A stretch of 64,000 nt of DNA, from assembly GCA_021776925.1 (NCBI GenBank), contig JAJFFB010000071.1, forward strand, positions 1 to 64,000, in the 5' to 3' direction. This document shows, piece by piece, positions 9,525 to 25,839 of the stretch. Source of the stretch: Planctomycetota bacterium (GTDB lineage Bacteria > Planctomycetota > UBA1135). The number at the start of each line of letters is the position of its first letter. The stretch's first letter is position 1. Made by a program: the position numbers and the translations under genes. The notes below the pieces were generated by a model. That model was not told the origin of the DNA and made no database searches. It was given only the letters and a program-made list of their open reading frames with translations.

Positions 9525-11318
9525 ATGGTCCGCATCGAAATCACAACCGGCCCCGAAGCCGGGCGTCAGGTCGACCTTGCAGCTGGGACGCACGTCATTG
9601 GCCGTCAGGCCGACTGCGATCTCCAGCTTTCGGTCACCTCGGTGTCCGGCAGGCACCTGGAAGTCCGCGTCGGCGCCGACGGTTCTGTCCATTTTCAGGA
9701 CCTTGGATCCACCAATGGCACCCACAGCAGCGGCCGCCAGGTCCAAGACGGCGAGTGGTTTCCGGGTTCTGAACTGAAGCTCGGCACCGCTGGACTGCGC
9801 TTGCTGGATCCCAATCAGGCCAGCCCCGCGGCGGCCCCCGACGAGGATTCCGCGATGCACGCCCGCGCTCGCCAGCAGGCCATGGCAGGCGGCCGTCGCG
9901 GCGGTCCGATGATGCTGCTGGCCTTGGTGCTGGTGGTCGGGGGGGCCGCGGGCGGTTACTGGTACCTGACGCGCAGCGATGCCGAAACGGTCGCGACCAG
10001 CGGCGGCGGCGAGGGTCCTGCGGTGGCCCGCGTGAATCTCGACTGGATCGACAATCTGGGTGATTTTGCCGCCGAAGACGCCGCCGCGGCGTGGCAGGTC
10101 GGCACCGGCCTGGTGATCCAAGAGGGTGCTCTGGTGTGCAGCCAGGCTTCGCGGCGGGCGCAACTGGCGCGCCGCTTCACCCTGCCCGGCCCCTTGTCCC
10201 TGAGCGCCGAGGTGCGCGGCGGCGCCGCAGTCCTGCCTTTGGTGGTGCCCTTGGTCGAGTGGGGCGACGATCAGCAGGAGCAGGCCATCGCCACCTGGAT
10301 GGCGGGGGATCTCAGTCAGGGTCAGGTCGATCTGGCCCTGCCCGCCGAGGCCACCTGGTTCCGCCTGTCGCTGTTGCTCGGTGAGGGCGCCGAGGTGCGC
10401 CAGCTGAGCGTCACTGAAGGCACTGGCGTGGTGACTCCCGCTCAAAGCGACGGGCGCCCGCTGCTCAGCGGCGGTGGCAACCTGCTGCTGCGTCATCACG
10501 ACGGACGTGCGCTGGTGCACGCGCGCGCTGCGGGCGGCCGCTGGCAAGAGGGTGCCGCCGGCCTCGAATACGATCCGCAAGGCGCGCCACGAACCTTGAC
10601 CATGGTGCTCGGAGATGCCGCCGCCGACGCTGGCCCGATGCTGATCCTCGGCGACGGCGGTCCGGTCGAAGCCGCCCCCGGGGTGGTGGTCGAAGGCTCG
10701 CCCGGCCTGCTTCTCGGCGGCGGCGCGCGTCGCTTCCTGATGCGCTTTCCGGCCCCGGTTAAGGTGATTGCGCGCGATCGCCAGATATCCTTCGAGGTCA
10801 CCCAGCCGCTGCTGCTGCGCTGGGACCTGAGCGACGAGATCAACCGCGCGGCGCGGCTGGCGCGGCAACTCGAAAGCGCCTCGGCCGACGCAGACGCGGC
10901 GCTGGTCCTGGCAATTTCGGCCGAAATCCTGCGTGACCTTCCCTTCGACGAAGAAAAGACTACCGCCGCGTTGCGCCTGGCCCGCGACACGATCCAGTCG
11001 GCGCGCGAACGACTGCGGGCGATGACCGAGGAAAAGGAAGACGCCAGACTGCTTGAAGCAGTGGGCGATCTGGCTCAATTGGAACAAGAGGCGCGCGCGA
11101 TGGCCGAGCGCATGGCCGCCACCGAACTGCACGACCAGGCCCTGGCCATGGCGGACGAGTTGAAGGAAATCGCAGAACTTTTCATGGACCGTACCCAACG
11201 CGAGACCGCTGCCTACCGCCAACGCCTGGGGCAGGCGCTGGCGGGGGCCTATCCGCTGCTGGCGGCGTGGCTTGATGACCAGGGAGCTCAACTGGTCGCC
11301 CTGGAGGGCCAACATTGA
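9525..11318 (+). CDS. FHA-domain protein with membrane segment and beta-sandwich region
   Basis: A 597-residue protein that opens the pilus-type operon. Residues 1-95 form an FHA domain with HVIGRQADCDLQL, SVSGRHLEV and DLGSTNGTH, the residues that bind phosphothreonine peptides. A membrane segment at about 128-147 puts the FHA domain in the cytoplasm and the rest in the periplasm. The periplasmic part begins with a region (about 170-300) whose AWQVG, IQEGALVC and LSAEVRGG strands resemble laminin-G-like sandwiches. It ends in roughly 170 residues of charged helix, probably coiled coil. Its TGA stop overlaps the TTG start of the PilM-like gene. It could couple Ser/Thr phosphorylation to the inner-membrane PilMNO-like complex. 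The FHA assignment is firm; the sandwich assignment is tentative. Confidence 0.88.
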   Translation: MVRIEITTGPEAGRQVDLAAGTHVIGRQADCDLQLSVTSVSGRHLEVRVGADGSVHFQDLGSTNGTHSSGRQVQDGEWFPGSELKLGTAGLRLLDPNQASPAAAPDEDSAMHARARQQAMAGGRRGGPMMLLALVLVVGGAAGGYWYLTRSDAETVATSGGGEGPAVARVNLDWIDNLGDFAAEDAAAAWQVGTGLVIQEGALVCSQASRRAQLARRFTLPGPLSLSAEVRGGAAVLPLVVPLVEWGDDQQEQAIATWMAGDLSQGQVDLALPAEATWFRLSLLLGEGAEVRQLSVTEGTGVVTPAQSDGRPLLSGGGNLLLRHHDGRALVHARAAGGRWQEGAAGLEYDPQGAPRTLTMVLGDAAADAGPMLILGDGGPVEAAPGVVVEGSPGLLLGGGARRFLMRFPAPVKVIARDRQISFEVTQPLLLRWDLSDEINRAARLARQLESASADADAALVLAISAEILRDLPFDEEKTTAALRLARDTIQSARERLRAMTEEKEDARLLEAVGDLAQLEQEARAMAERMAATELHDQALAMADELKEIAELFMDRTQRETAAYRQRLGQALAGAYPLLAAWLDDQGAQLVALEGQH

Positions 11319-12976
11319 GCCGCGGCACCGGAATTGACCTCGGCCGTCACAGCGTGCGCCTGGCGCAGGTCGACTGCAAACGTGGCGCCACCACTCTGCT
11401 GCGTTATCAGGCGGCGGCGCTCGATCCCGGCGAAGATCCGCTCGCCGCCGGGCGCGAGGTCTTCTCGGCGATGCGCCCCAAGGTCAGCAACGTGCGCCTC
11501 GGCGCCACCGGCTCCGACATCATGCTGCGCTACCTGCCGGTGCCCGAGGTCGAGGACTGGCGCCTCGAACGGCTGATGGAATTCGAGGTGCGCGAACTGG
11601 AGTCGCGTTCGGGTTCGCCGTTGGCGACCTCCTACAACCTGCTGCCGGTTCCGCGCGAGCTCGACGACGAAGACACCATGCTGCTCGGGGTCATCCGCGA
11701 GGACCTGGTTGACCGCTGGGTCGAGGGACTCGGGTCGGTACGCGTCGAGGGTTTCACCCCCAATGCGGTGGCGCTCTACAACGCCTACCTGGCGCTCGGC
11801 GACCAGGAGAACTCGGTCACCCTGCTCGCCAACATCGGCGCCGGTTCGCTCGACCTGGCGCTGGTGCGCGGCAGCGAACTGTACTTCGCCCGCTCGGTCT
11901 CCACCGGACTGGAAAAGCGCGACCAGCTGCTGGCCGACAACCTCGGCATCGACGCGGCGCGCGCCGAGCGGCTGATTTTCAAGCATCTCGACCTTGCCCT
12001 GGGAACCGGCGAACGCCTGAGCAGCGACGGCGACCGCGTCACCCGCCCGGTGCTGCCGCTTTATGACACCCTTCCCACCCTGATGAGCGGGGTGATCACG
12101 CTGTGCAAGGCGCAGGCCCGGCTGCGCGAATTGTCCCTCGACCGCGTGCTGATCACCGGCGGCGGCGCGCGTGCGCGCGGGCTGGTGCAATTGCTGACCG
12201 GCCGACTGCGCGTGCCGGTGAGCTTGTGGGACCCGACCGACATGGTCGATCCCTCGCGCCTGGCCGAAGCCGACCTCGACCAGCTCGAGGCCGACGGGCC
12301 CGGGGCCACCGTCGCCCTCGGTCTGGCGCTGAGCGCCGCGGACTCCAACCTCTACGCCCTCGAGATTCTGTCCAAGGCGGCGCGCCGCAGCCGCGACTTT
12401 CGCCAGCGCGGGGTGTTTTCGATGGCCGCTGGCGTCCTCGCGGTGGCCTACCTGGGCATCAGCTGGTGGGTCACCAATGACCGCGCAACCGAGGTCGGGG
12501 GCCAGGCCGGCCGCCTTGGTGCACAGGTGCGCAAGGCGCAGGCCGCCGAGACCAAAGCCACCGAGTACCTGCAGCAGATCGAACAGGAAGAGGTGCTCCT
12601 TGCCGACCTCGAAGCGCGCTTCGCAGCGCAGCGCAGCGCCGCCGAAATCCGCGACTTCCTGGTCGACCAGCTGCCTGCCAACCTGTGGGTCGACAGCCTT
12701 ACCGTTGAGTTGCGCAGTGGCAAGGACTGGGACCTGCCCGACCGCACCATCCCGGTGCTGCGCGCGGTGGGCCGCGGCGAAGACGCCGCAGACATGGCCA
12801 CCACCGCTTTCAATGCCTTCAGCCAGCAGCTGTGGTCGCAGCTGCCGGGTGGCGAAGCCGCCGCGCGCCCGTCGACCAAACGCGTCGGCCAGGGCATCGA
12901 ATGGACCATCGAAGCTCACTTGCTCGATCTCGGCGGTGCAGATGAATCCGACCTCGACGCGGAGGACCAAGGATGA
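11315..12976 (+). CDS. PilM-PilN-like fusion protein
   Basis: A 553-residue inner-membrane protein. The first 350 residues follow the PilM/FtsA actin-like fold: GIDLGRHSVRLAQV at the phosphate-1 position, LLANIGAGSLDLAL at phosphate 2 and VLITGGGARARGL near the adenosine site. A membrane segment (about 368-388, FSMAAGVLAVAYLGISWWV) is followed by a short coiled coil and a beta/alpha domain of about 110 residues, as in PilN or GspL. In standard type IV pili PilM is a separate cytoplasmic protein that binds the N-terminus of PilN; here the two appear fused, as in GspL. The start is TTG at 11315, overlapping the FHA gene stop. The next gene overlaps by 4 bases. The domain order is clear; its partners are inferred from the operon. 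Confidence 0.82.
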   Translation: MSRGTGIDLGRHSVRLAQVDCKRGATTLLRYQAAALDPGEDPLAAGREVFSAMRPKVSNVRLGATGSDIMLRYLPVPEVEDWRLERLMEFEVRELESRSGSPLATSYNLLPVPRELDDEDTMLLGVIREDLVDRWVEGLGSVRVEGFTPNAVALYNAYLALGDQENSVTLLANIGAGSLDLALVRGSELYFARSVSTGLEKRDQLLADNLGIDAARAERLIFKHLDLALGTGERLSSDGDRVTRPVLPLYDTLPTLMSGVITLCKAQARLRELSLDRVLITGGGARARGLVQLLTGRLRVPVSLWDPTDMVDPSRLAEADLDQLEADGPGATVALGLALSAADSNLYALEILSKAARRSRDFRQRGVFSMAAGVLAVAYLGISWWVTNDRATEVGGQAGRLGAQVRKAQAAETKATEYLQQIEQEEVLLADLEARFAAQRSAAEIRDFLVDQLPANLWVDSLTVELRSGKDWDLPDRTIPVLRAVGRGEDAADMATTAFNAFSQQLWSQLPGGEAAARPSTKRVGQGIEWTIEAHLLDLGGADESDLDAEDQG

Positions 12977-13740
12977 ACCTGGACACCCTGTGGCAGTTGC
13001 ACAAGCGTTTTCTGATCGGCGTCGCCGCGGGTCTGGTGGTGTTCCTGATCGGCATGGCGGTGGTTGGCCGTACCGCGGGCAAGGAACTGCGCAGTGCTGA
13101 AAGCACCCTCGCGCGGCACAAGCGCACCCTGGCCACGCCGGCCTACACCCAGACCCAGGTCACCGAGTTGCGCACGCGGCTCGAAGAGATCCGCCGACGT
13201 ACCCAACACTTCGGTTCGGCGGCGCTGCCGCCGTTGCGTGAGCGCTACGTTCCGGCTGCCGGGCAATCGCCCACCCAGCACTACATCGAGCTCACCGGCG
13301 AGATCCGCAGCGAGCTGATCGGCTGGGCCCTGCGCCAGAACGTCGAGATCGATCCCGGTCTCGGATTGCCACCGCAGTCGCCGACCCAGCCGCAAAAGAT
13401 CGCACGCGTGTTGCGCGGTCTCGACGTGGTCGAACGCGTGAGCCGGCTGGCGGTGAGCTATGGCGCAGCGGCGGTGGACAACATCGAGATCACCTCGCGG
13501 GCGGTCAATCGCAACCAGACCAAGTCCAGTTCCCCGCTCGACCTGACCCCGGTGATCCTCGAAGTTGTGTTCGATCGTCACAGCCCGGCGGCTCTGCTTC
13601 ACGCCATCCTCGAAGGCGCCGACGGTGGCGGATCGCTGGGGCTGGTGCGCGCCGAACTCCTGGCCGAGGACAAGCGCAAGAAAACCCGGCGCCTGGTGCT
13701 TGAGTTCGCCGCCGGGTCCCTGCCCGAGGAAATCCTGTGA
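12973..13740 (+). CDS. PilO/GspM-like inner-membrane protein
   Basis: A 255-residue bitopic membrane protein: a short cytoplasmic start, one membrane helix (about 12-31, FLIGVAAGLVVFLIGMAVVG), a coiled coil (about 38-75) and a periplasmic alpha/beta domain. This layout, and its place directly after the PilM-PilN fusion, match PilO or GspM, which pair with PilN or GspL in the assembly platform. Sequence identity to the family is not obvious by eye, so the call rests mainly on architecture and context. ATGA overlaps join it to the gene before, and a GTGA overlap joins it to the gene after. Confidence 0.65.
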   Translation: MNLDTLWQLHKRFLIGVAAGLVVFLIGMAVVGRTAGKELRSAESTLARHKRTLATPAYTQTQVTELRTRLEEIRRRTQHFGSAALPPLRERYVPAAGQSPTQHYIELTGEIRSELIGWALRQNVEIDPGLGLPPQSPTQPQKIARVLRGLDVVERVSRLAVSYGAAAVDNIEITSRAVNRNQTKSSSPLDLTPVILEVVFDRHSPAALLHAILEGADGGGSLGLVRAELLAEDKRKKTRRLVLEFAAGSLPEEIL

Positions 13741-16487
13741 AGCGAGAACAAGGTCTGCTGCTCGGTGTGGTCGCCATCCTTGGCCTGATGGGATGGTCGC
13801 TCAAGGGCGACGCGGGTGCCGGCGCCCGGGGCTCGCGCCAGGCGCGCGCCAAGGACCTGATCCTGGATGCGCTCGGACCGGCCGATCCGGTGGTCCAGCT
13901 TGATGGGCACGCTTCCAACCGCGATCCCTTCGTGCGTCCGCTGCCGGACAGCCCGCTGGAACTGCTGGCCCTGCCGGCACCGCCGCTGGACGAACTGCCC
14001 TCCTTGCTGCCGCCGCCGCTGCCGGCTGGTTCGCCGGCATCCTGGAGCCAGCACCTTTTTGCCTTCCCGGCTACGCCGCTCGGCGACATCGACGACCTGA
14101 TCGATCTCGACGCCGGCGCCGACCAGGGAATGGACCAAGAGGGCGCCGATTCCGGTTTTGGCAGTGACGAGGTCGGCACCGACGAAGCCACCCAGGTCAC
14201 GCTGTCGTCCGATCAGGATGAATTCGGGGCGGTCTACGATTCGATCCGTCTCGATGCCATCCGCACCTTCTACGGCTTCATCCTCGATGATGACCGCTAC
14301 GAGATCCAGGTGGGAGATCCGATCACCTTCCAGCAGGTCGATGCCGAGACCGGCGAAGAGATGTTCGCGCCGCAGACCTACCAGGCGGGGGAGTACGAGG
14401 CCTTCGCTCTGGCGCGCACGCTGCGCAACCAGATCGAATACAAGGTGCGCGAAATGCGCGGCGCCAGCCCCGGCCGCGTGGTCGAGATGCGCGAGCACGT
14501 CGACTGGCTGTTGGCCAACGCGATCCAGCAGCCGATCGCCTTTGGTTACGCCGAGGAACACGCGCGCTGGCTGATTCAGGTGCAGCCCGACCACGTTCTC
14601 AACTGGCTCACCCTGGGCACCGTGTGGGAGCGCACCTTCCGCTTCGACGAGGCCTTCACCCTTTACGCCACCCTGGCCGGCGAGGAGCTACCCGAGAGCG
14701 CTCCCGATCTCGGCCTGGAGTTACAGGAAGGGCGTTTTGCCGCAGCCGAAAAGGCCCGCCTGCAGGTCGGCATGGCGCGGATCCTGCGCCGCCTCGGCGC
14801 CGACGCCGAAGCCGAGGCCTTGCTGCGCCACGCCAACCAGGAACGCCCGGCCGGCGACGCCGCCACCCTGGTGGCGCTCGGCAGCGTGCTGTTGGATCGC
14901 GGCCAGCCGGCCGCAGCCATGCTTCACTTCGAGCGCGTGACCAACATGTCGCCGCCGCGCAATTCGCCGCTGGCGCTGGCCAACGGCCTGGCGCGTGGGC
15001 GTTGCGCGATGGCGTTGGGGCGCTTCTCCGAGGCCGCCGACGTGTTCGCCGACACCCTGCGTGCCGACACCGCCTCGCCGCAGGCCAAAGACGCCGCCAG
15101 CGGCCGCATCGCCGCGCTCTACGGCGGTGGCGACTTCGCCACCGCGGTGCAGGAAGCCGAAGACGCCATCGAGACCTACGGTTCCAGCGCACAGCTGCTC
15201 TATCTGCGCGGCATCGCCAACGCCGCCGATGGCGGGGCCGCGGCCGAAGTGGTGCGCGACCTGCGTGCCGCTGCGGCTTCCGCGCCGCTCGACGCCGCGC
15301 CGGCGCTGGCCGCGCTGGCCTTCTGGTACGACCGTCTCGGTCTCGACAGCGAAGCCAGCGCCGCCCTCGACCAGGCGCTCGATCAGTCCCCCGATCTCTA
15401 CTACGCCCGCTATCTACGCGCACGCTGGGCGGTCCGCGACGGCGAATTGGAGAGCGCCTCCGAAGACCTGCGCCGTCTGGTCGCCGAAGCTCCACGCTGC
15501 GTCGGGGTGCTGGCCGAGCTGGCCTGGCTGCTGCACGCCCAGGACCTCTTCCCGGCCTCCGAGGTCGCCTACCGCCGCGCCGAACTCGAGCTGCCTGCAT
15601 GGGCGCGCTCCTCGAGTACCGCGCCGCAGTGGGCCGACCTGGCCTTGCGCCGCGGTCTCAACTTTGCCGAGTCGCAGGAGTGGGCGCGCGCCGCGGAACA
15701 ATTCCTCGCCGCCAAGTCCTTCGATCCGACCCTCTACGCGGCGCAGAACGGCCTGGCGCGGGTGGCCTACGCCCAGGACGACCTGACCCAGGCGGTGTCC
15801 GAGTTTGCCTACCTGCAGGATAATTTGCGCCAGAATCAAGAGGACCCGCAATTCCTCTACGCGCAGTCCTGGCAGGGGCGCATCACCGCCCACGCGCGCT
15901 TGCGTTTGTGGACCGATGATTTCTCCGGCAGCCGCCTGCGGCCCGGCTGGGAAATCCTGCTCAAGGCCAAGCTCGGCGTCGAGCCGCGCCTGGAAAGCGG
16001 CCATCTTTCGATCCGCGGCGAGCACAGCGGCAAGGGCCGCACGCGTGCCACGCGCGAGGTTCCGGCGTTGCACTTCCAGTCCTTCGGCGGCGATTTCGAG
16101 GTCGGCGCGCGCCACAGCGGCGACGCCGGTTTGTTGATCGCGCTGGAAACGCGCAATCAACGGCAACAGTGGCTGTTCCAGGTTTTCCGCGACCGCGACG
16201 GCCGGCTCGTCTATCAGTGGAAGCAAGGCGCCAAGGAAGAGCGTCAGCCCGTGAACATCCCATTCCCGACCGACCAGCCCGTCCGCATCGAGTTCGACAT
16301 CAACCGCGAGGCCAACACCCCGGAACTGCGCGTGCGCTTCAACGGCGAAGAGATCTACCGCGGTGCGGCGGCGCAGCTCAAGTCCTCGGCCGCTTCCCTG
16401 GTCTACGGAATGTTTGTGGATACCGCCAACGCGTTGCCGGTGCACGCCAGTCTTGACAACGTCGAAGCGATCTACGCCAAACCATGA
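13737..16487 (+). CDS. Membrane-anchored RDPF/TPR/beta-sandwich protein
   Basis: A 916-residue protein, GTG start, overlapping the stop of the PilO-like gene. A membrane helix (about 5-20) anchors it with the bulk outside. Residues 61-69, NRDPFVRPL, resemble the RDPF motif near the N-terminus of PilP and other pilus or T2SS linker proteins. A proline-rich linker follows, then a globular region (about 160-260). At least eight TPR-like repeats cover about 280-690. The C-terminus (about 724-916: DDFSGSRLRPGWEI, HLSIRG, GGDFEVGAR, RIEFDINR) is a concanavalin-like sandwich similar to laminin-G or DUF1080 domains. It sits where pilP occurs in pilMNOP operons, so it may link the inner-membrane complex to the outer envelope. 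A standard PilP is far shorter. Confidence 0.7.
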   Translation: MKREQGLLLGVVAILGLMGWSLKGDAGAGARGSRQARAKDLILDALGPADPVVQLDGHASNRDPFVRPLPDSPLELLALPAPPLDELPSLLPPPLPAGSPASWSQHLFAFPATPLGDIDDLIDLDAGADQGMDQEGADSGFGSDEVGTDEATQVTLSSDQDEFGAVYDSIRLDAIRTFYGFILDDDRYEIQVGDPITFQQVDAETGEEMFAPQTYQAGEYEAFALARTLRNQIEYKVREMRGASPGRVVEMREHVDWLLANAIQQPIAFGYAEEHARWLIQVQPDHVLNWLTLGTVWERTFRFDEAFTLYATLAGEELPESAPDLGLELQEGRFAAAEKARLQVGMARILRRLGADAEAEALLRHANQERPAGDAATLVALGSVLLDRGQPAAAMLHFERVTNMSPPRNSPLALANGLARGRCAMALGRFSEAADVFADTLRADTASPQAKDAASGRIAALYGGGDFATAVQEAEDAIETYGSSAQLLYLRGIANAADGGAAAEVVRDLRAAAASAPLDAAPALAALAFWYDRLGLDSEASAALDQALDQSPDLYYARYLRARWAVRDGELESASEDLRRLVAEAPRCVGVLAELAWLLHAQDLFPASEVAYRRAELELPAWARSSSTAPQWADLALRRGLNFAESQEWARAAEQFLAAKSFDPTLYAAQNGLARVAYAQDDLTQAVSEFAYLQDNLRQNQEDPQFLYAQSWQGRITAHARLRLWTDDFSGSRLRPGWEILLKAKLGVEPRLESGHLSIRGEHSGKGRTRATREVPALHFQSFGGDFEVGARHSGDAGLLIALETRNQRQQWLFQVFRDRDGRLVYQWKQGAKEERQPVNIPFPTDQPVRIEFDINREANTPELRVRFNGEEIYRGAAAQLKSSAASLVYGMFVDTANALPVHASLDNVEAIYAKP

Positions 16488-17134
16488 TGTGCCACCCGCA
16501 AATCACAGCCGCTGGGGGGGGGGGAGCGGCCCGCCGCTCGGCGACGGGCGGTTTCACCCTGCTCGAGCTGATGGTGGTGATCACCATCATCGGCATCCTG
16601 ATGGGTTTCCTGCTCACCAGCGGTGGTGCGGTGTTCCGCGACGCCAAGTCCAAGCAGACCCGCACCCAGCTTGAGACCCTGGCGAGCCTGATCAACGAGT
16701 ACCGCACCATCGAAAATCAGTTCCCCGACGACCGCTTGCCGGTGGGTGTCCATACCGGGGCGATGAACTCACAGGCCGAGGCGCTGGTGTTGGCTCTGTT
16801 CGACCGCGAGTACACCGGCAACCGGCCGAAACTTGATTCGGTGATCAACACCGATGACGACCGAGTGGCGCGCAATACCACTATCTTTGCAGAGCCCAAA
16901 CTGTTCGAGATTAAGGACGCCTGGGACAACCCGATCCTCTACTTCGAGAGCCTGCATTACGGCGACGTCGCCACGGTGATGGCTGGCTACGACCTGTACT
17001 ACGAAGAACAGACCACCGGCGCGCGCAAGCACAAGACCACCGGCGCCTACCTCAGTCCCAATGGCTTCCAACTCGTCTCGGCAGGAGAGGACGGGGTGTT
17101 CGACACCGAGGACGACATCATCCTGGCCCGATAG
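16484..17134 (+). CDS. GspG-like major pseudopilin
   Basis: A 216-residue prepilin-type protein. After a long basic leader of 22 residues comes the class III signal G|FTLLELMVVITIIGIL with glutamate at mature position 5. Cleavage would be by a prepilin peptidase, which is not present in the window. A helical stem and a C-terminal region with repeated Asp follow; the last part (SAGEDGVFDTEDDI) resembles the calcium-binding C-terminal loop of GspG. The leader is encoded partly by an 11-base run of G (16514-16524) just before the cleavage signal. A slip there would remove the protein or change its start. The gene overlaps the stop of the TPR gene (ATGA). Of the five pseudopilins it is the closest to a major subunit. 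Confidence 0.87.
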   Translation: MMCHPQITAAGGGGAARRSATGGFTLLELMVVITIIGILMGFLLTSGGAVFRDAKSKQTRTQLETLASLINEYRTIENQFPDDRLPVGVHTGAMNSQAEALVLALFDREYTGNRPKLDSVINTDDDRVARNTTIFAEPKLFEIKDAWDNPILYFESLHYGDVATVMAGYDLYYEEQTTGARKHKTTGAYLSPNGFQLVSAGEDGVFDTEDDIILAR

Positions 17135-17140
17135 TCCGCC

Positions 17141-18121
17141 ATGCCCGCCACCCGCCGCACCGGTTTCACGCTCGCCGAGATGCTGCTGGTGATGGTTCTG
17201 GTCGGCATCTTGATGGGTTTCGGTCTGTCCGGCATCGACCGCATGGACCCCGGCGCGCGCGGTCTCGCCACCACGCTCGAGACCTTCATCCAGACCAGCC
17301 GCGACCGCGCGCGCGCCACCGGGCAGCCGGTCACGCTGCAATTTGAAGAAGCGACCGCCGAGGTGCCCGGGCGTTTCGTGCGGCGGGTTTTCCGACCGAT
17401 CCTGGAAGCGACCTTCGAGACCCAGGTCAGCCAGCGCGAAAACCTGATCGCGGTCGGCTCCGGTCGTCTTGACCGCCCCGGGCGTTTCGGCGCCGGCCTT
17501 GACCTGAGCCTCAGCGGCGGCGCGCAGGTGATGGGCCGCGGCGGCCAGGCGCAGACCAGCCAGGGCCTGCAGGTGGGCATGGACTTCCGCACCAGCGAAG
17601 GCGGCAGCGCGCACCTGCTGGTGTGGGAAGACGTCATCGAGGTCTCGGTGCGGCGCGACGGTGCGTTGGTGTGCGAGGCGATCTACGGCGATGACGAGGG
17701 CTCCGCGCCACAGCAGCTGGCCAGCGAAGCCGGCCTGGTGGTGCCCGGGCGCTGGTACCGGGTGCGCGCGCTGGCGCTACCCGGGCGCATGGAGATCCAT
17801 CTCGACGGCCGCCGGGTGGCCGAACGCGAGGCCCTCGGCCGCCTCAACAGCAGCGATGTGCCCCCCTTTCTGGGCGACCCCGACGGCGATTTCCTCGGCC
17901 ATATCGACGAGTTCGTGGTGTGGGCGGTGGCCACCGAAATCGGCCCCGAACTGCGCGAAACCCAGGGCGCCTTTGTCGGCGCGCTGCAGGTGGTCTTCGA
18001 CCGCTTCGGCCAGCTCGACGAGAAGCTCCATCCCGAGCCGGTCGAGGTGCGCGTCTCCGATCTGGACAACGAGATCCTGCGCCTGAGGATCGGGCGCTTC
18101 ACCGAGGAGGAAATGCCATGA
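17141..18121 (+). CDS. GspH-like pseudopilin with laminin-G-like insertion
   Basis: A 326-residue pseudopilin with signal MPATRRTG|FTLAEMLLVM and mature Glu5. The helix leads into a GspH-like start (ARGLATTLETFIQTSRDRARATGQPVTLQF). Residues about 121-270 form an insertion with the strand order of laminin-G or concanavalin sandwiches: LQVGMDFRT, WYRVRALALPGRMEIHLDGR and FLGHIDEFVVW. GspH proteins are usually 150-200 residues, so this insertion nearly doubles the protein. The final segment (GALQVVFDRFGQLD...RLRIGR) returns to the GspH-type strand pattern. It lies six bases after the GspG-like gene and overlaps the GspK-like start by 4 bases. The insertion probably sits on the pilus surface. Confidence 0.82.
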   Translation: MPATRRTGFTLAEMLLVMVLVGILMGFGLSGIDRMDPGARGLATTLETFIQTSRDRARATGQPVTLQFEEATAEVPGRFVRRVFRPILEATFETQVSQRENLIAVGSGRLDRPGRFGAGLDLSLSGGAQVMGRGGQAQTSQGLQVGMDFRTSEGGSAHLLVWEDVIEVSVRRDGALVCEAIYGDDEGSAPQQLASEAGLVVPGRWYRVRALALPGRMEIHLDGRRVAEREALGRLNSSDVPPFLGDPDGDFLGHIDEFVVWAVATEIGPELRETQGAFVGALQVVFDRFGQLDEKLHPEPVEVRVSDLDNEILRLRIGRFTEEEMP

Positions 18122-21100
18122 GACACGCGTGCAACCGCGGCTCCGCTCTGATCGTCACCCTGTTGGCCCTTTCCCTTCTCTTTTCCCTCGGCGTTCCCTT
18201 CCTGCTCACCAGCCGCATGCGCTCGGAAGCCTCGCGCGAGGGCTATGACCGCTCACGCGCGCGCGTTGCGGTTGAGTCGGCGGCCGACTGGACCGAATTC
18301 GAGCAGGTCATCAGCCACCCGGCGCAAGACCCCACGCCGTTCTACGACGCCGCCGAAGAGTGGAACGTCGCCAACTCCGGCTCCATGCCGCAGGCGCTGG
18401 GCGGCAGCTGGGAAAAAGCCAACGAATCGTGGGGCGCCGAGGTCGAATCGGCGCAGGCGCGCGTGTCGCTGGGATCGGCGCCGCCGCTGTTGTGGCAGAA
18501 CCTGCTGCACCCGTGCTTCCTCACCGAAGACATCGATTTCACCGCCACCGAGATCCCGGTGACCTCGACCGAGGGCTTCCCCGAGTCGGGTCTGCTGCGC
18601 CTCGGCATCCACTGGGTCGAGTACGCCTCCAAGTCGTCCTCGGCCTTCCTCGAAGTGTCGCCGTCGGCCGATCCTCCGGAAGAACTCGAGCGCACCCGCT
18701 TTGGCGAAGGTCAGGCGGTGATCGACCAGCGCATTTTCAGCATGGCGATGGCGCGGCTGCAGTCCGGCGGGCACCGCGCTCCCGAGTTTCTTAACGACCT
18801 GCTCGGCTTCGATTTCGGCGATCCCGACGCGCTGCTGCCCGAGGCCGACCGGCGTTATCTCGAGTCGGTGTGCTGGCTCAGCAGCGGCGACTTCGGCGCC
18901 GAGGACTGGGGGCCGGGGGTGTATCTGCAGGCCGAGATCAACGACGAGAATCCGGCCTTTGCGCGCACCTACGACGGCGGGGCGTTCTCACCCGGCACCG
19001 TGGTGCGGGTCGAGGTCGACGGCCGCGAGCTGCTCGACACCTTCGCCATCGACGCCTATGGCCAGCGCGGCATGATGCTGGCCACCGACCTGCCGCGCGA
19101 GCTGCCGGTGCTGGACACCGTGCTGCGGCCGTTGCGCCGCGAACCGGTCGACATCAACGCCTGCCGCCCCGAGATCCTCGAGGCGCTGGTCGTCGGCCTG
19201 CGCTTCCGCGGTGGCGCCCCGGTGATCTCGACGCGGCCGCCGACCGGCAACAACCGGCGTCACTACGTCTCGGCAATGCGTGCGCGCACCTTCGCCGAAG
19301 CGGTGGTGGCCGCGCGGCCGGTGGAGGGGCCCGACGACCTCTGGTACCGGGTGCTGGAACCGTTGATCCTGAGCAACCGGCTCAGCCACGTCGACGCCTG
19401 GGTGATCTACCTCAACGGCGTCGATCCCAACAACGGCGCCCTGGCGGCATCGACGACCTCCTTCGCCTACCGCAGCGGCGACCGCTATCTGACGCGCTTG
19501 AACGCGGCGGTGCGCGCGCGTCTCGGCCGCACCCTGGCGCGGCGGGCGCGCTTCCTCGACCGCCGGGTGGCTCCCGACGGACCGCTGATCGGTGCCTGGG
19601 AAACCCAACTCGGATTCGAGGACGCCGCGCGCTACGGGCGGGGCATGCATCGCACCCTGTCCCTTCCGGGCAACCGCGGTTTTCTCGGCGGCCACATGGA
19701 CGGCCAGCCGCTGAGCGGGCTGACTCTGCGCACCGGTGCCTACGAGCCCACCGGCACCATCCTTGCCTCGCAGGATGCGGAGCTGTCGGCGATCCTGCCC
19801 GCGCCGGCGCGCGAAGCCGGCCTGGCTGCCGGAGGCCGCATCCAGCACTGGGATTTCGAGCCCTCGCCGCTGGGCTGGAACCTCGGCGAGCAAGGCCCGC
19901 TGCCGTTCACCATTCAGGAACTCGGCCTTGCGGTCGGCCCCACCGGCGGGTCGGACAGCGCGCCACTGCTGCTGCAGGGCTGGTTCGAGATGCCGCGCGA
20001 CGGCGTCACCAACGGGGTGCTGTTCGACCTCGCCGGCGACGCCATCGACCGCGCGCGCGTCACCGCCGCGATCGAAGAAGGCCAGTTGGTGGTCAAGGCC
20101 TACGACAACGCCGGCGAAGACCCCGGCGACCCCGACGGTCAGGAAGAAGCGCTGACCGTGCGTCTCGACGCCGCCGAGTATCCGATCCAGAACCGCTGGT
20201 TCCACGTCAACGTGCTGATGCGTTCGATCGCCCACGGCGGTCTGCAGGTCGCCGTCGACGGCGTGCCGCGCGGCCAGACCCTGGGGCGCACGCGTCTGAC
20301 CTCGGCGCTGAGCGGCTACGCCCCCGGCGACAGCGATCCGACCATCGCGGTGGAATCGACCGAGGGCTTTCCCTCTGCCGGGGTGCTGCGCATCGGCGAC
20401 GAGGTCATCGAATACAGCTCCAAGACCGCCACTTCTTTCGTCTGCGTGCGTAGTCAGACCGCCGAAGGCTGGATCGGCGGGCGCGCCGCCCGCGAACCCA
20501 GCGACAGCCTGGTCAACATCCGCGACACGCTGCACCCCGAGGGATCGGGGGTCGAGTTGTACGGCTACACCGCCTTCCTCGAATCCGACATTCCGCCCGG
20601 CGGCGCGCGCATGATCAGCGCGGTGGGGCCGTGGTCCTGCGCGGTCGGCGTCGAAGGCCCGGAGACCATCCAGATGATGGCGATTGACGGGCGCACCTTC
20701 GACATCGGCGACGGCATGTCAGGAGATTATCTGGGGCCGATCGAACTGGCGCCGATGGTGGCCGGCGACACCTATTACTCCGAGGCCTTCCAGGCCGACG
20801 GCGGCTACGCGATGATCGCGCAGCGTTATTTCCAACCCGTAGACTCCGAAGGCTTCCGCATCGGCGGCTTCGAGGTGGTGCGTTACAACAGCCGCGAGGG
20901 CACCACCCTCAATATCATCGAGCGCAAGGTGCTGACCACCGGGGTGCAGAACAGCTGGCCGGGCTGGGCCACCGAGGGCCTCGGCAATAGTTTTGTCTTC
21001 GAGTGGCGCCCCTACATGGGCAACACCGAGTACACCACCTTCGAAGGGGTTGAAGAGCTGCGCACTTTCATCCTGCCGATCTCGATCCGCGGCGACAGCG

Positions 21101-22986
21101 TCAGCGATCTGCGTTATCTGCTGCCGACGCCACAGAACTCCGAATTCGTGCAGATCACCCACACCGACGACGTCGGCCTGACCGAATGGGTGCGCTACGA
21201 CTCGATCATCGAGAACTCTTTCGTGCGCGACGACTGGGGTGCGCTCAATAACGCGATCCTTGATCCGATGCTGCGCGGCGGCTACCAGGAGAACTACGAT
21301 CCGCCCACTTCTCCACCGCCCGGATCCGGTGGCGGACCGGGCGGGACCGGTGGTGGCGGAGGAGGCGGGGGTGCAGGCGAGGTCGGTGGCGGCGGCATGC
21401 TGCTGCTACGCCAGGACCCGGTGAACGACCACAAGTTCACCCGCCGCCTCGGGCTTCCGGTCGAAGACCGCGATCCGTTGCTCAGCGACATCTCCCAGCG
21501 TTTCCAGTTCCGCGGCGTGCTCGGCACCTTTGATCACGACCACCCCGGCGGCGAGGAGCTGGTGCCGGTATTCCAGACCCGGCGTCCGATCGGCGAGTCG
21601 CCCAACACCGGCTACGTCGGCCGCCTCGACCGCGTTTCCGTCCTGCAGCCGGACAATCCCAGCCCGCCGGCCTGGTACACGGTGATGTGGGGGACCGCGC
21701 CCTTCCCCTTCGATGACGGGCGGGTGCGGCGCAACCGCACCTACGTCGCCTTCACCACCTCGACCGGGCTGCCTTACGCCCACACCGACTTGTCGAATCT
21801 GGGTTCGCCCGGCAGCGACGGGCGTCTCTACGCGCGGCTGTCCAAGTTTCCCAACGGCGAGCGGCCTGGGGGGTTGAACAGTCTGTTCCTGGGTTCCGGG
21901 GTGGGCGGTAGCGGGGGCATCTTCGGCGGGCTGGTCGACGAGTTCGCGGCGCAGGAACCGGCCGGCATGGGACCCGGTGCGGTGCAGACCTCGCGCGGCA
22001 GTTTCGTCCTGGTCGAAGACCTCGAAGCCGGAGCCGACAACGAGATCCACGTGCACCCCTTGCTGATCAGTGTCGACGGGCAAAACCTTTACGGCGCCAA
22101 CGCCGGACAATGGCTGGCCAATCTGCCCCAGCAAGGGCTGCTCGAAATCGACGGCGAACGCGTCGTCTACTCAAGTCTCGACCCTCAGCAGGGCATCTTC
22201 GAGGTCGCCGTCGACGGGCGCGCGCTGCACGGCACGACCGAGGGCGGGCACGCCGCCGGTACCAAGGTGTGGGTCGTCGACAGCCGGCCGATCACCTTCC
22301 TGCAGAATGACATCAGCGCGTCCGAATCGACCTTGGTGGTCGAGAGCAGCGTCGGCTTCAACAACGACAGCCTGCTGCTGATCGATCAAGAACTGCTGCA
22401 CGCGCCGATCGTGGCCAACGGCAACACCATGATGATGCCGCGCTACGAGCAGGAGCTCGATCCGCAGGACGGCCTCGGCGAGCGCGGCGACGGCATCCTG
22501 CGCGGGCGCTTCGGCACCGTTCCCGGCGGGCACGCAGCCGGCAGCCTGGTCTACGGCTATCCCAATCGCTGGACCGACCGCTACGCGCCGCAGAGCAATA
22601 GTCCCTCGGGGGCGTGGTACCAGATCGGCATGGAGGAACCGGGCGCCTATTGGGACGGCATTCTCTTCGAGGCCGAAGAACCCGACGCGTCGCACCGGGT
22701 GCGGGTGCTCGCGCGCAGCGGCCCGGCGCAATGGAGCGATCCGCCGGATGAAACTCCGGGCCTGGTGATGGTCGACCGCGGCTCGCTGCCCGGTGGACTG
22801 CCGGTGCCGCTCGGCCTGCACGGCGACCATCTCGACCTGCGCGTGTGCTTCGACTGGGAACTCGGCGCCTTCGATTCCGAGACCTTCCTCGCCACCGCCT
22901 GGACCGTGGCTCCGCGGTTGCGCCATCTGCGCCTGTACTACTACGCCGAAACGCGCACCGACCGCCAGGAGGAAATCTTCGAATGA
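18118..22986 (+). CDS. Giant GspK-like pseudopilin (1622 aa)
   Basis: This 1622-residue protein begins MRHACNRGSALIVTLLALSLL, a prepilin-like leader and helix without Glu5, as in GspK. Near residue 343 EPVDINACRPEILEALV matches the helix-hairpin-helix (SAM-like) region of GspK. Standard GspK is about 320 residues; this is five times longer. A laminin-G-like sandwich occupies about 575-725. Motifs of the form GFPxxGxLxIGxExIxYxS recur near residues 145 and 742, with weaker forms near 1341 and 1404, the latter two followed by GT...GGHAAG strands. A poly-Gly/Pro linker lies at about 1060-1095. The frame is open 198 bases upstream, but that part overlaps the GspH-like gene. The ATG at 18118 overlaps the previous stop, and the final TGA overlaps the GspJ-like start. 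It likely caps the pseudopilus and extends far from it. Confidence 0.82.
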   Translation: MRHACNRGSALIVTLLALSLLFSLGVPFLLTSRMRSEASREGYDRSRARVAVESAADWTEFEQVISHPAQDPTPFYDAAEEWNVANSGSMPQALGGSWEKANESWGAEVESAQARVSLGSAPPLLWQNLLHPCFLTEDIDFTATEIPVTSTEGFPESGLLRLGIHWVEYASKSSSAFLEVSPSADPPEELERTRFGEGQAVIDQRIFSMAMARLQSGGHRAPEFLNDLLGFDFGDPDALLPEADRRYLESVCWLSSGDFGAEDWGPGVYLQAEINDENPAFARTYDGGAFSPGTVVRVEVDGRELLDTFAIDAYGQRGMMLATDLPRELPVLDTVLRPLRREPVDINACRPEILEALVVGLRFRGGAPVISTRPPTGNNRRHYVSAMRARTFAEAVVAARPVEGPDDLWYRVLEPLILSNRLSHVDAWVIYLNGVDPNNGALAASTTSFAYRSGDRYLTRLNAAVRARLGRTLARRARFLDRRVAPDGPLIGAWETQLGFEDAARYGRGMHRTLSLPGNRGFLGGHMDGQPLSGLTLRTGAYEPTGTILASQDAELSAILPAPAREAGLAAGGRIQHWDFEPSPLGWNLGEQGPLPFTIQELGLAVGPTGGSDSAPLLLQGWFEMPRDGVTNGVLFDLAGDAIDRARVTAAIEEGQLVVKAYDNAGEDPGDPDGQEEALTVRLDAAEYPIQNRWFHVNVLMRSIAHGGLQVAVDGVPRGQTLGRTRLTSALSGYAPGDSDPTIAVESTEGFPSAGVLRIGDEVIEYSSKTATSFVCVRSQTAEGWIGGRAAREPSDSLVNIRDTLHPEGSGVELYGYTAFLESDIPPGGARMISAVGPWSCAVGVEGPETIQMMAIDGRTFDIGDGMSGDYLGPIELAPMVAGDTYYSEAFQADGGYAMIAQRYFQPVDSEGFRIGGFEVVRYNSREGTTLNIIERKVLTTGVQNSWPGWATEGLGNSFVFEWRPYMGNTEYTTFEGVEELRTFILPISIRGDSVSDLRYLLPTPQNSEFVQITHTDDVGLTEWVRYDSIIENSFVRDDWGALNNAILDPMLRGGYQENYDPPTSPPPGSGGGPGGTGGGGGGGGAGEVGGGGMLLLRQDPVNDHKFTRRLGLPVEDRDPLLSDISQRFQFRGVLGTFDHDHPGGEELVPVFQTRRPIGESPNTGYVGRLDRVSVLQPDNPSPPAWYTVMWGTAPFPFDDGRVRRNRTYVAFTTSTGLPYAHTDLSNLGSPGSDGRLYARLSKFPNGERPGGLNSLFLGSGVGGSGGIFGGLVDEFAAQEPAGMGPGAVQTSRGSFVLVEDLEAGADNEIHVHPLLISVDGQNLYGANAGQWLANLPQQGLLEIDGERVVYSSLDPQQGIFEVAVDGRALHGTTEGGHAAGTKVWVVDSRPITFLQNDISASESTLVVESSVGFNNDSLLLIDQELLHAPIVANGNTMMMPRYEQELDPQDGLGERGDGILRGRFGTVPGGHAAGSLVYGYPNRWTDRYAPQSNSPSGAWYQIGMEEPGAYWDGILFEAEEPDASHRVRVLARSGPAQWSDPPDETPGLVMVDRGSLPGGLPVPLGLHGDHLDLRVCFDWELGAFDSETFLATAWTVAPRLRHLRLYYYAETRTDRQEEIFE

Positions 22987-23909
22987 TGCCTGCAGCGTCC
23001 GCGCGCAGCGGCCGGCGCCGCGGCATGACCCTGCTCGAGGTCATGCTGGCGATGGGCCTGTTCGCCTTGCTGTCGCTGTTCATCTTCCAGGTGGTGACTT
23101 CGGTCCTCGGTTTGTGGCAGAGCAGTGAACGGCGCGGTCGCGGCGACCTTGCCTTCACCGCCGCGGTCGAGCGCCTGCGCACCGACCTCGGCGCGCTGCA
23201 CAACGGCCCGCGCGGCTGGATGATGCTCGACCACTGGGAACCCATCGAGGTTGCCGCCGGCGAGAGTCCCAGGCGCATGCCCCGCCTGCGCTTTCTGGCC
23301 CGCGGCGCTTCCCTCCCCGGCGACGACGCCGGCGGCCGTTCGGCGGTCGAGGTGGCGTGGCTGCTGGTACCCGATCTGGCCAAAGACGGCTTGGCGCGGC
23401 TGGTGCGGGTGGCGCAGATCGAAAACCCGGGCAGCAGTCTGCGTGACGAAGGTACCTTGCGCGGACTGCTCAACCAGGGCGGCGGTGTGCCGATCCTCGA
23501 CGGCGTCCTGTGGATGGAGCTGGTGGCGCATCTTGATGACTCCACCCAGAGCCAGGATTATTCGGTGCCGGCGGAGAGCCCCTTCGACTTCCCGGTGGCC
23601 TTCGATCTGGTTCTGGAACGGGTGACCAAGGGGGGCATGCGCCGCCCCCTGGAACTGGACAGCAATCTCGATGCCACCGGGCGCAGCATGGTGGTGCGCG
23701 GCAATGCGCCGCTAAAGATGCCGCCCTACGCCCTGGTCGGCCACGAGTGGGTCGGGGTCAGCGGCACCTTTCCGCGCCTGAACTGCAGCGAACGCGGCGC
23801 GCGCGGCGGCTCGCCCTTGAGCCACCTGCGTGGAGTACAGGTGTGGCTGCCCGAGGTGTACCAGGCGGATTGCGCGGTTTCCGCCGCTGGCCGGAGGCTG
23901 CAGCCGTGA
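22983..23909 (+). CDS. GspJ-like pseudopilin
   Basis: A 308-residue prepilin-type protein with leader [27 protein letters not shown]. Mature position 1 is Met, and Glu5 is present. A long helix and a beta-rich C-terminal region resemble GspJ, including a W-containing central stretch. The open frame extends upstream but overlaps the GspK-like gene; the ATG at 22983 overlaps its TGA, and a second ATG follows at once. The stop overlaps the GTG of the next pseudopilin. With the K- and I-like proteins it would form the tip complex known for GspI-J-K. Its assignment as J rather than another minor pseudopilin rests on order (K-J-I) and size. Confidence 0.75.
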   Translation: MMPAASARSGRRRGMTLLEVMLAMGLFALLSLFIFQVVTSVLGLWQSSERRGRGDLAFTAAVERLRTDLGALHNGPRGWMMLDHWEPIEVAAGESPRRMPRLRFLARGASLPGDDAGGRSAVEVAWLLVPDLAKDGLARLVRVAQIENPGSSLRDEGTLRGLLNQGGGVPILDGVLWMELVAHLDDSTQSQDYSVPAESPFDFPVAFDLVLERVTKGGMRRPLELDSNLDATGRSMVVRGNAPLKMPPYALVGHEWVGVSGTFPRLNCSERGARGGSPLSHLRGVQVWLPEVYQADCAVSAAGRRLQP

Positions 23910-24358
23910 ATCGCAATCAGCGTCGTCGCACCCAGGCGCGGGCCTCCGGATTCACCCTGATCGAGGTCCTCCTGGCGATGGGGCTGTTCCTGCTCGGCAT
24001 CACCGCGCTGCTTGGCATGTTCCAGTTCGGCGGCGGCATGGAACACGCCGCACGCACCCACGCCGAACTGGCCCCGGCGATCGAACCGCTGGTCGCGCGG
24101 CTGAAAAAAGACGCCTGGCTGCTCGACGCTTCCGGAAACGCCAACGAATTGCGCAACTACTTCGATCAGCCGGTCCCCGGCGCCCCCGCTTTCCTTTACG
24201 CTCTAGAAGTCGAAGCGGTGGGGGACAACCCCTTCCTGCGCAAGGCCAACCTGCACTTCTACCGTAAAGACCCGGAGCGCATCGAGGCGCGCGTCAGCTT
24301 TTTGCTGCCGCGACAGGTGCCGGTCGACCGCCGCCTCGCCGAACGCGACAACCACTAG
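23906..24358 (+). CDS. GspI-like pseudopilin
   Basis: A 150-residue protein with leader MNRNQRRRTQARASG|FTLIEVLLAMGLFLLGITAL and Glu5. It is the smallest of the five pseudopilins and matches GspI in size, signal and place beside the J- and K-like genes. It starts with GTG at 23906, inside the stop of the GspJ-like gene; an earlier in-frame start would overlap that gene by 160 bases and put the signal in mid-protein. It is the last pseudopilin, with 11 bases before the next gene. Confidence 0.78.
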   Translation: MNRNQRRRTQARASGFTLIEVLLAMGLFLLGITALLGMFQFGGGMEHAARTHAELAPAIEPLVARLKKDAWLLDASGNANELRNYFDQPVPGAPAFLYALEVEAVGDNPFLRKANLHFYRKDPERIEARVSFLLPRQVPVDRRLAERDNH

Positions 24359-24369
24359 GAGATCCAGAC

Positions 24370-25839
24370 ATGTTTGCTGCCCTGATCCTGACCACGCTGA
24401 GCACCGCCCTCCCGCAGGAACCGGACGCCCACTTCGAAGTGGTGCGTGTCCTCGACGGGCGCGTTCTGGTCGGCGAAGTGGTCGAACACGACCTCGACGG
24501 TCTCGACGTGATTTCGGCGCGCAACGGCGGCCACTATCGGCTGGGCTGGGCCGACCTGTTCCCGGGCGAGGCCGAACGCCTGAAGAACAACTTCGGCTAC
24601 CGCACCGACTCGGCGGCGCCGACGGTCACCGCCGACCGCCTGATGATGGTCAACGGGCAGCAGATCATTGGTCGCATCCTGTCGCGCGATGCCAACCAGA
24701 TCACCATCCGCACGCGCGGCAACACCCTGGTGGTGCCGACCGTGCGCCTCGCCGCGCCGCCGGAAAAGGTGGTGGTCGACGCCATCGACGTCATGACCCC
24801 CGAGCAGTTCTATCAGGAGCGCCTGCCGCAGATCCCTGAAGACGACGCGCTCGAGCAATACCGTTTCGCGCTCGAACTGGAAGAGGTGTCCGCTTACCAG
24901 CAAGCGCAAGAACATCTGCAGGCCGCGCTCGTTCTGGCCGCCGGCGACGAGCCGCTGGAGCGCCGCATCGAGGGCGCGTTGCCGCGCGTCGAAACGGCGA
25001 TCGCCAACAAGGCCGAGACCGAAAAGATCAAGGAAATCCGTGGCCTGATGTACCGCGACCGCTATGCGCAGGCCGAAGAGCTGATCGAAGCCTTCCGCGA
25101 AGAGCATTCGGACTCGCCGGTCTACGACCAGTTCCTCGACGTCATCGAGAAATTCGACGAGGAGCGCGAAACGGCGATGACCCTGTACCTGCGCAACAAC
25201 TGGTACAAGCGCGCCGCGGCGATGATCAAAAAGAAGTCGATCGACCGCCGGGCCACCGTCGAAAGTCTGCAGAACTGGGCCACCAGCGAAATGCCGCAGG
25301 CGCTGCGCGAACTGCTCGCGGTGGAATTGCAGGAAATGAAGCCTGATCTCGATCCGGGTGAGGTCGAGTCGCTGTGGCGCGCGCGCATGGAGACCAAACC
25401 CAAGCGCCACCAGGCTGGCTACGGCCACGGCACCTGGATCCTCGGCGAGAACCGCGCCCGTGCCGGGCTCAAGGACGAGGAAGAGCAAGAGTCCGACGGC
25501 CGCACCGAAGCCGAGAAGGAACTGCAGGAGCGCTACCGACGTTATCTAGAAAACCTCGAGCGCACCCGCCAGGCCGCCGGCACCTCGGAAGACGCCACCC
25601 CTGAAGACTGGTGGAAGAACGCCACCGCCACCGCGCGCTTCCAGTGGCTGCTCGCCTACTACGCAGAGTTCTCCGGCGATTTCGAACTGGCCGGTGTGCG
25701 CTTCGAAAACTGTCCTACCTGCAGCGGCGACGGCTATGTCGAGTCGATCCAGGTCGGCACCGGCGGCGGTCAGGAAAAGCGCAGCAAGTGCCCCACCTGC
25801 CACACCGTGGCGGTGCGTCGCAGCCTCTACTTCCGCTGA
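24370..25839 (+). CDS. Exported helical protein with C-terminal zinc ribbon
   Basis: A 489-residue protein that I cannot assign to a family. A short hydrophobic N-terminus (MFAALILTTLSTALPQ) suggests export. Residues 20-120 carry two similar beta units (DGRVLVGEVVEH and NGQQIIGRILSRD). A long charged helical region (about 140-400), partly TPR-like, follows. The C-terminus has two CPTC knuckles (448-451 and 474-477) spaced as in the DnaJ zinc ribbon, including CPTCSGDGY. Four closely spaced cysteines of that kind usually bind zinc and are more common in the cytoplasm. Export is therefore not certain, or the cysteines form disulfides. It continues the pilus-type operon after an 11-base gap and may assist assembly. 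Confidence 0.7.
   Translation: MFAALILTTLSTALPQEPDAHFEVVRVLDGRVLVGEVVEHDLDGLDVISARNGGHYRLGWADLFPGEAERLKNNFGYRTDSAAPTVTADRLMMVNGQQIIGRILSRDANQITIRTRGNTLVVPTVRLAAPPEKVVVDAIDVMTPEQFYQERLPQIPEDDALEQYRFALELEEVSAYQQAQEHLQAALVLAAGDEPLERRIEGALPRVETAIANKAETEKIKEIRGLMYRDRYAQAEELIEAFREEHSDSPVYDQFLDVIEKFDEERETAMTLYLRNNWYKRAAAMIKKKSIDRRATVESLQNWATSEMPQALRELLAVELQEMKPDLDPGEVESLWRARMETKPKRHQAGYGHGTWILGENRARAGLKDEEEQESDGRTEAEKELQERYRRYLENLERTRQAAGTSEDATPEDWWKNATATARFQWLLAYYAEFSGDFELAGVRFENCPTCSGDGYVESIQVGTGGGQEKRSKCPTCHTVAVRRSLYFR

Follow-up and report, generated by a model that had tools for sequence, protein, structure and literature searches.

Among the described systems, the type IVa pilus with its PilM/PilN/PilO/PilP platform (Myxococcus xanthus, 3jc8) resembles the cassette analysed here in its PilM and PilN homology, in the PilO-like product of the next gene and in the RDPF protein that follows. 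However, in the cassette PilM and PilN are fused, the PilP-like part sits on a TPR protein of 916 aa, an FHA protein and a giant pseudopilin, K, are added, and the locus has neither motor nor secretin. The T2SS, with GspL-M and the pseudopilins G-H-I-J-K, is alike in the PilM-PilN fusion (GspL), in the number of five pseudopilins and in a K without Glu5, whereas the cassette lacks D, E, F and C, its K reaches 1622 aa, its H bears a lectin-type module, its order is L-M-x-G-H-K-J-I and a separate T2SS is present in the same genome. GspD, GspE, GspF and GspC, the genes that would mark a T2SS locus, are all missing from the window (the whole stretch of DNA analysed, 64,000 nt long), and D-E-F lie on another contig.

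Two further systems come, like the cassette, from PVC bacteria. The MUL2 locus of Akkermansia (Amuc_1099-1102) is reported as likely to serve attachment during mucin use (PMC13174399), and the model of its PilM-like Amuc_1101 (NF045709) is the best NCBIfam match of the PilM-PilN protein (2.8e-21, residues 56-463). Nevertheless, this match scores 76 bits against a cut-off of 650, which rejects membership, and the description of MUL2 gives four genes, among which the pseudopilin set of the cassette is missing. The Verru_Chthon cassette A-D (TIGR02600, 02598, 02599, 02596) is likewise a set of PVC pseudopilins of which one is very large, but every match to it falls far short of the cut-off (K relative, 0.0022; G, 2.7e-4; I, 0.0022) and membership was rejected as well.

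A likeness by description exists with PilB and PilC of Streptococcus sanguinis, modular pilins of which PilC joins a pilin module to a ConA-like lectin module and is modelled at the tip (PMC8179133, PMC9934059), although these belong to a monoderm type IV pilus and their modules are small beside K. In the InterPro census of PMC8179133, the most extreme modular pilin mentioned is 860 residues long; K, with 1622 aa, would widen the known size range. In two planctomycete species, pili-like dextran-binding fibres have been seen (PMC5394234). These species may lack the cassette, and the fibres of the crateriform structures of P. limnophila and G. obscuriglobus are not claimed as its product, since many complete genomes belong to families that seem to be without it. 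For the question of how large polysaccharides are bound and taken up by planctomycetes, a conserved block of nine to ten genes with lectin-type pilins offers a concrete genetic target.

The cassette comprises nine co-directional ORFs at 9525-24358, in the order FHA, PilM-PilN, PilO-like, RDPF/TPR, G, H, K, J, I, followed by a conserved tenth gene:

9525..11318, + strand: FHA protein, 597 aa (cytoplasmic FHA domain at residues 5-95, one TM-like stretch at 126-148, large presumed periplasmic part)
11315..12976, + strand: PilM-PilN fusion of GspL-like architecture, 553 aa, TTG start (family and profile matches)
12973..13740, + strand: PilO/GspM-like protein of the inner membrane, 255 aa (assigned by position and topology, with weak homology)
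13737..16487, + strand: TPR protein, 916 aa (RDPF motif of the PilP kind at residue 62 behind a hydrophobic N terminus; TPR repeats, then a further C-terminal region)
16484..17134, + strand: GspG-like pseudopilin, presumed major subunit, 216 aa (N_methyl; profile comparison)
17141..18121, + strand: GspH-like modular pseudopilin, 326 aa (Laminin_G_3/ConA-like domain at 180-264)
18118..22986, + strand: giant GspK-like pseudopilin K, 1622 aa (helix at 7-64, GspK segment, LamG/LNS, tail-hub-like segment)
22983..23909, + strand: GspJ-like pseudopilin, 308 aa (family matches)
23906..24358, + strand: GspI-like pseudopilin, 150 aa (family matches; GTG start at 23906)
24370..25839, + strand: exported TPR/DnaJ-type zinc-finger protein, 489 aa (conserved neighbour)

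An ORF check of the window placed all nine genes at the coordinates given by the original prediction, which had read them as one operon joined mostly by 4-base overlaps. Such overlaps were confirmed at seven of the eight junctions (11315/11318, 12973/12976, 13737/13740, 16484/16487, 18118/18121, 22983/22986 and 23906/23909), the G-H junction being a 6-base gap, and the start of gene I was set at the GTG in 23906 in place of the mechanical ORF start at 23747. Family searches of the 64-kb window bore out the predicted lack of a motor ATPase, PilC/GspF, secretin and A24 peptidase, and the earlier remark on enlarged parts was right as well. The DnaJ-type zinc finger of the tenth product, whose gene is conserved beside the cassette, has the form CxxCxGxG.

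The proposed PilMNO-like platform holds, with clear matches for PilM and PilN and a weak one for PilO. The fusion matches PilM_2 in the family search (3e-11), and a profile made from its relatives matches both PilM (3jc8_Ma, 7e-24) and PilN (3jc8_Na, 2e-4) in one chain, while the best solved chain for the PilO-like protein is PilO (3jc8_Oa, E 0.03, a weak profile match). The protein with the RDPF motif has TPR family matches. The leading protein matches the FHA (2e-11) and Yop-YscD_cpl (2e-12) families, and G26 R27, S41 G42 H44 and N64 G65 are invariant, so that the GR, SxxH, NG pattern is present. Phosphothreonine binding by FHA domains usually needs these residues, and the phospho-regulated assembly suggested in the original prediction, although unproven, would fit their invariance.

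G, H, I, J and K form a five-member pseudopilin set, as had been predicted, the GspK-like nature of K being visible only via its relatives. N_methyl (the class III signal peptide family) is above cut-off in G, H, J and I, and the C-terminal part of G has a GspG-type motif. Among 16 H members, Laminin_G_3 was found in 15 and N_methyl in 11, and H, which joins a pilin module to a non-pilin functional domain, is a modular pilin. Neither this lectin-type module nor the make-up of K had been mentioned in the original prediction.

K measures 1583-1751 aa across the order, and its structure models (pLDDT 87-88) predict a pilin-like N-terminal helix 58 residues long (residues 7-64). Glu5 is absent from K in the copies read, as it is from GspK. 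NF037980 (GspK) matches 10 of 17 K members below cut-off (best, 7e-11; window copy, 0.19), and GspK/T2SSK models match several relatives, in which the segment lies near 348-412. A structure search with the N-terminal half of K gave no solved GspK fold and nothing below E 0.02, possibly because of the insertions in K. After residue ~590, the model of the window copy contains a LamG/LNS fold (5z8y_B, 3bop_A; prob 1.00, rmsd 3.7 A), and LamG is recognised by sequence in four members. Moreover, a segment near residues 1340-1385 is like the GTA/phage tail-hub family Rcc01698_C (1.1e-6 in the relative L066), with a weak echo of the tail-tip protein of phage JBD30. The pilin-like helix, the lack of Glu5, the GspK matches, the LamG/LNS fold and the tail-hub-like segment together indicate, therefore, that K is probably a giant modular tip pilin. 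LamG domains are not always sugar-binding. A motif like STEGFPxxGxLRIGxExIEY is repeated in K (gene at 18118-22986 of the window) at residues about 150-190, 745-790 and 1405-1440.

The original prediction proposed a candidate envelope machine resembling a type IV pilus or T2SS, and took an order kept in several genomes as a sign of a distinct system; comparison of gene order found it conserved in many. PilM-PilN was found in 59 of the 61 nearest genomes of the order, and the complete run from FHA to I in 18 of 20 relatives read, the other two being cut by the ends of their stretches. An uninterrupted FHA-PilMN-PilO-TPR-G-H-K run occurs in 60 of 80 named public loci (mostly Planctomycetota), most of the others reaching a contig border or having split gene calls. 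Of 20 loci sampled beyond the order, 12 preserve the run from FHA to J with K in place; K alone is missing in three, a recognised FHA in two, and the last three are rearranged, truncated or otherwise different. The cassette is present in loci of Pla86, Poly30 and Pla163, and its lineages include cultured strains. In a sample of the phylum, many families, including near-complete single-contig genomes, give weak PilM matches alone and probably lack the cassette. Chance or a pseudogene is ruled out by this conservation. No description of the cassette was found in the literature searched, Planctomycetes are absent from the main text of a study of type IV filament diversification (PMC6668835), and nothing relevant was found on 'Saltatorellus' jumping and pili. 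The cassette is a real and conserved variant within the family of type IV filaments, and apparently one that had not been described before. Among families outside the order, the loci without K between H and J (L217, L221 and L232) are natural K-less variants.

An assembly ATPase, PilC/GspF and a prepilin peptidase are all encoded in the genome, outside the cassette locus. A T2SS block D-E-F-G-H-I-J lies on contig C87, away from the cassette contig; C165 encodes a GspL-like protein (PilM_2/T2SSL matches) with a small GspM-like neighbour, a pair also present in G006, G012 and G042; and the search for A24 peptidases gave one. Two more type IV pilus-like loci, on C79 and C1, each have a platform, motor, secretin and pilins of their own, whereas C64 carries PilB-PilT-PilB-PilC and a histidine kinase but no pilin, platform or secretin gene. 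The T2SS of the lineage is scattered into D-E-F-G-H-I-J, L-M and possibly K (L075, L246, L080). A complete standard T2SS elsewhere with its own pseudopilins, and an order not conserved in relatives, would have spoken against a distinct system; the first was found in part, since the scattered T2SS has a G-H-I-J set and a GspL/M pair to itself, and the second clearly not, so the claim stands.

The small relative G006 has only two motors, the T2SS and the orphan PilB-PilT-PilB-PilC, and two PilM-class platforms, GspL/M and the PilMN-O of the cassette; G013 has the same two motors. In G006, once T2SS D-E-F is matched to GspL/M, the orphan motor is the one left for the cassette. As motors of this type are found in genomes lacking the cassette too, their presence or absence does not discriminate, and the comparison turned to operon context. 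Five genomes without the cassette have pseudopilins directly after PilB-PilT-PilB-PilC. One of these pseudopilins matches the profile of cassette G not only in its N-terminal but also in its C-terminal part (9e-27), while T2SS G controls match it well in the N-terminal third only. In the 11 cassette-positive motor loci read (L076, L165, L169, L173, L179, L239-L244), no pilin follows PilC. The genomes sampled share descent, and the MAGs are incomplete. Elimination and gene context thus lead us to infer that the cassette pairs with the orphan motor. A PilT-like ATPase is encoded in this operon and would act on the cassette filament, but in one family outside the order (L239, L244) the motor operon is PilB-PilB-PilC without PilT, so that retraction may not be general.

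We give even chances to the reading in which the cassette and the orphan motor build a retractable pseudopilus whose giant lectin-type tip grips polysaccharide or surface glycans. The FHA protein, PilM-PilN, the PilO-like protein and the RDPF/TPR protein, as a PilP-like link, would form the inner-membrane platform, with FHA and PilM on its cytoplasmic side and with PilN, PilO and the RDPF/TPR protein on its periplasmic side, and FHA would link assembly to Thr phosphorylation. The cassette would supply a complete filament, with G as the major subunit, H, I and J as minor ones and K at the tip; PilB1/PilB2 and PilC of the orphan operon would polymerise G and PilT would retract the pseudopilus. 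K, without Glu5, would cap the tip and, with H, display LamG and other beta modules outward. Pushed out through a secretin by the filament, the lectin-type tip would hold on to polysaccharide or to glycans of surfaces, and the filament would then be drawn back, possibly hauling polysaccharides in. The lectin-type modules of H and K point to glycan capture, along a presumed path from LamG through sugar binding to uptake. The fuller proposal, a widespread, undescribed planctomycete retractable pseudopilus with lectin-type and phage-tail-hub-like modules at its tip, serving macromolecule capture or uptake and not secretion or motility, is tentative and we hold it to be somewhat improbable.

The same parts could also make a second T2SS, in which PilMN, PilO and the TPR protein would act as GspL, GspM and a GspC-like protein and the pseudopilus would piston proteins out with borrowed GspE/F/D. 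The complete G-H-I-J-K set, the PilM-PilN fusion as in GspL, the GspG-kind motif of G and a match of the cassette PilMN profile to the T2SS GspL of a cassette-negative genome (3e-11) agree with it. Nevertheless, the T2SS locus has its own G-H-I-J, with a separate GspL/M, and a borrowed T2SS motor would leave PilB-PilT-PilB-PilC without pilins in G006 and G013; we consider this reading unlikely. A plain pilus for adhesion or motility (attachment, twitching-like movement), with K as a surface adhesin unrelated to uptake, appears slightly less likely still: the PilT-like ATPase of the partner operon fits it and a role as adhesins is known for modular pilins that carry lectins (PMC8179133, PMC9934059), but near-universal presence, small-genome relatives included, suggests a central function; the evidence does not tell adhesion and uptake apart. 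A static, non-filament pseudopilin scaffold that would organise the envelope, with FHA and TPR hubs and without its own assembly motor, is highly improbable, since the full set of pilins, which have cleavage motifs, and the PilMNO platform belong to an assembly apparatus and a pilin-less motor is present in the cassette-positive genomes read, even though no motor gene was seen beside the cassette and the TPR protein and K are giant.

Two further kinds of secretin locus occur in the genome. On the cassette contig (C172), 28 kb beyond the window end, a short secretin of the lipoprotein type lies next to a GspK-like gene. Such a secretin is found in 13 genomes at 59-116 kb from the cassette, a proximity that may be plain synteny; it sits between OmpH-like and GspK-like genes (L080 14758-18283; L166, L170, L174, L180, L182, L183). 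On C58, two large secretins surround ExbB/ExbD genes (C58:66000-85999, L079); there and in L167, L171 and L177, secretins of ~810-890 aa flank ExbB, ExbD and a ~950-aa TPR protein, and this layout, in which two secretins accompany a TonB-type motor, is kept across the order.
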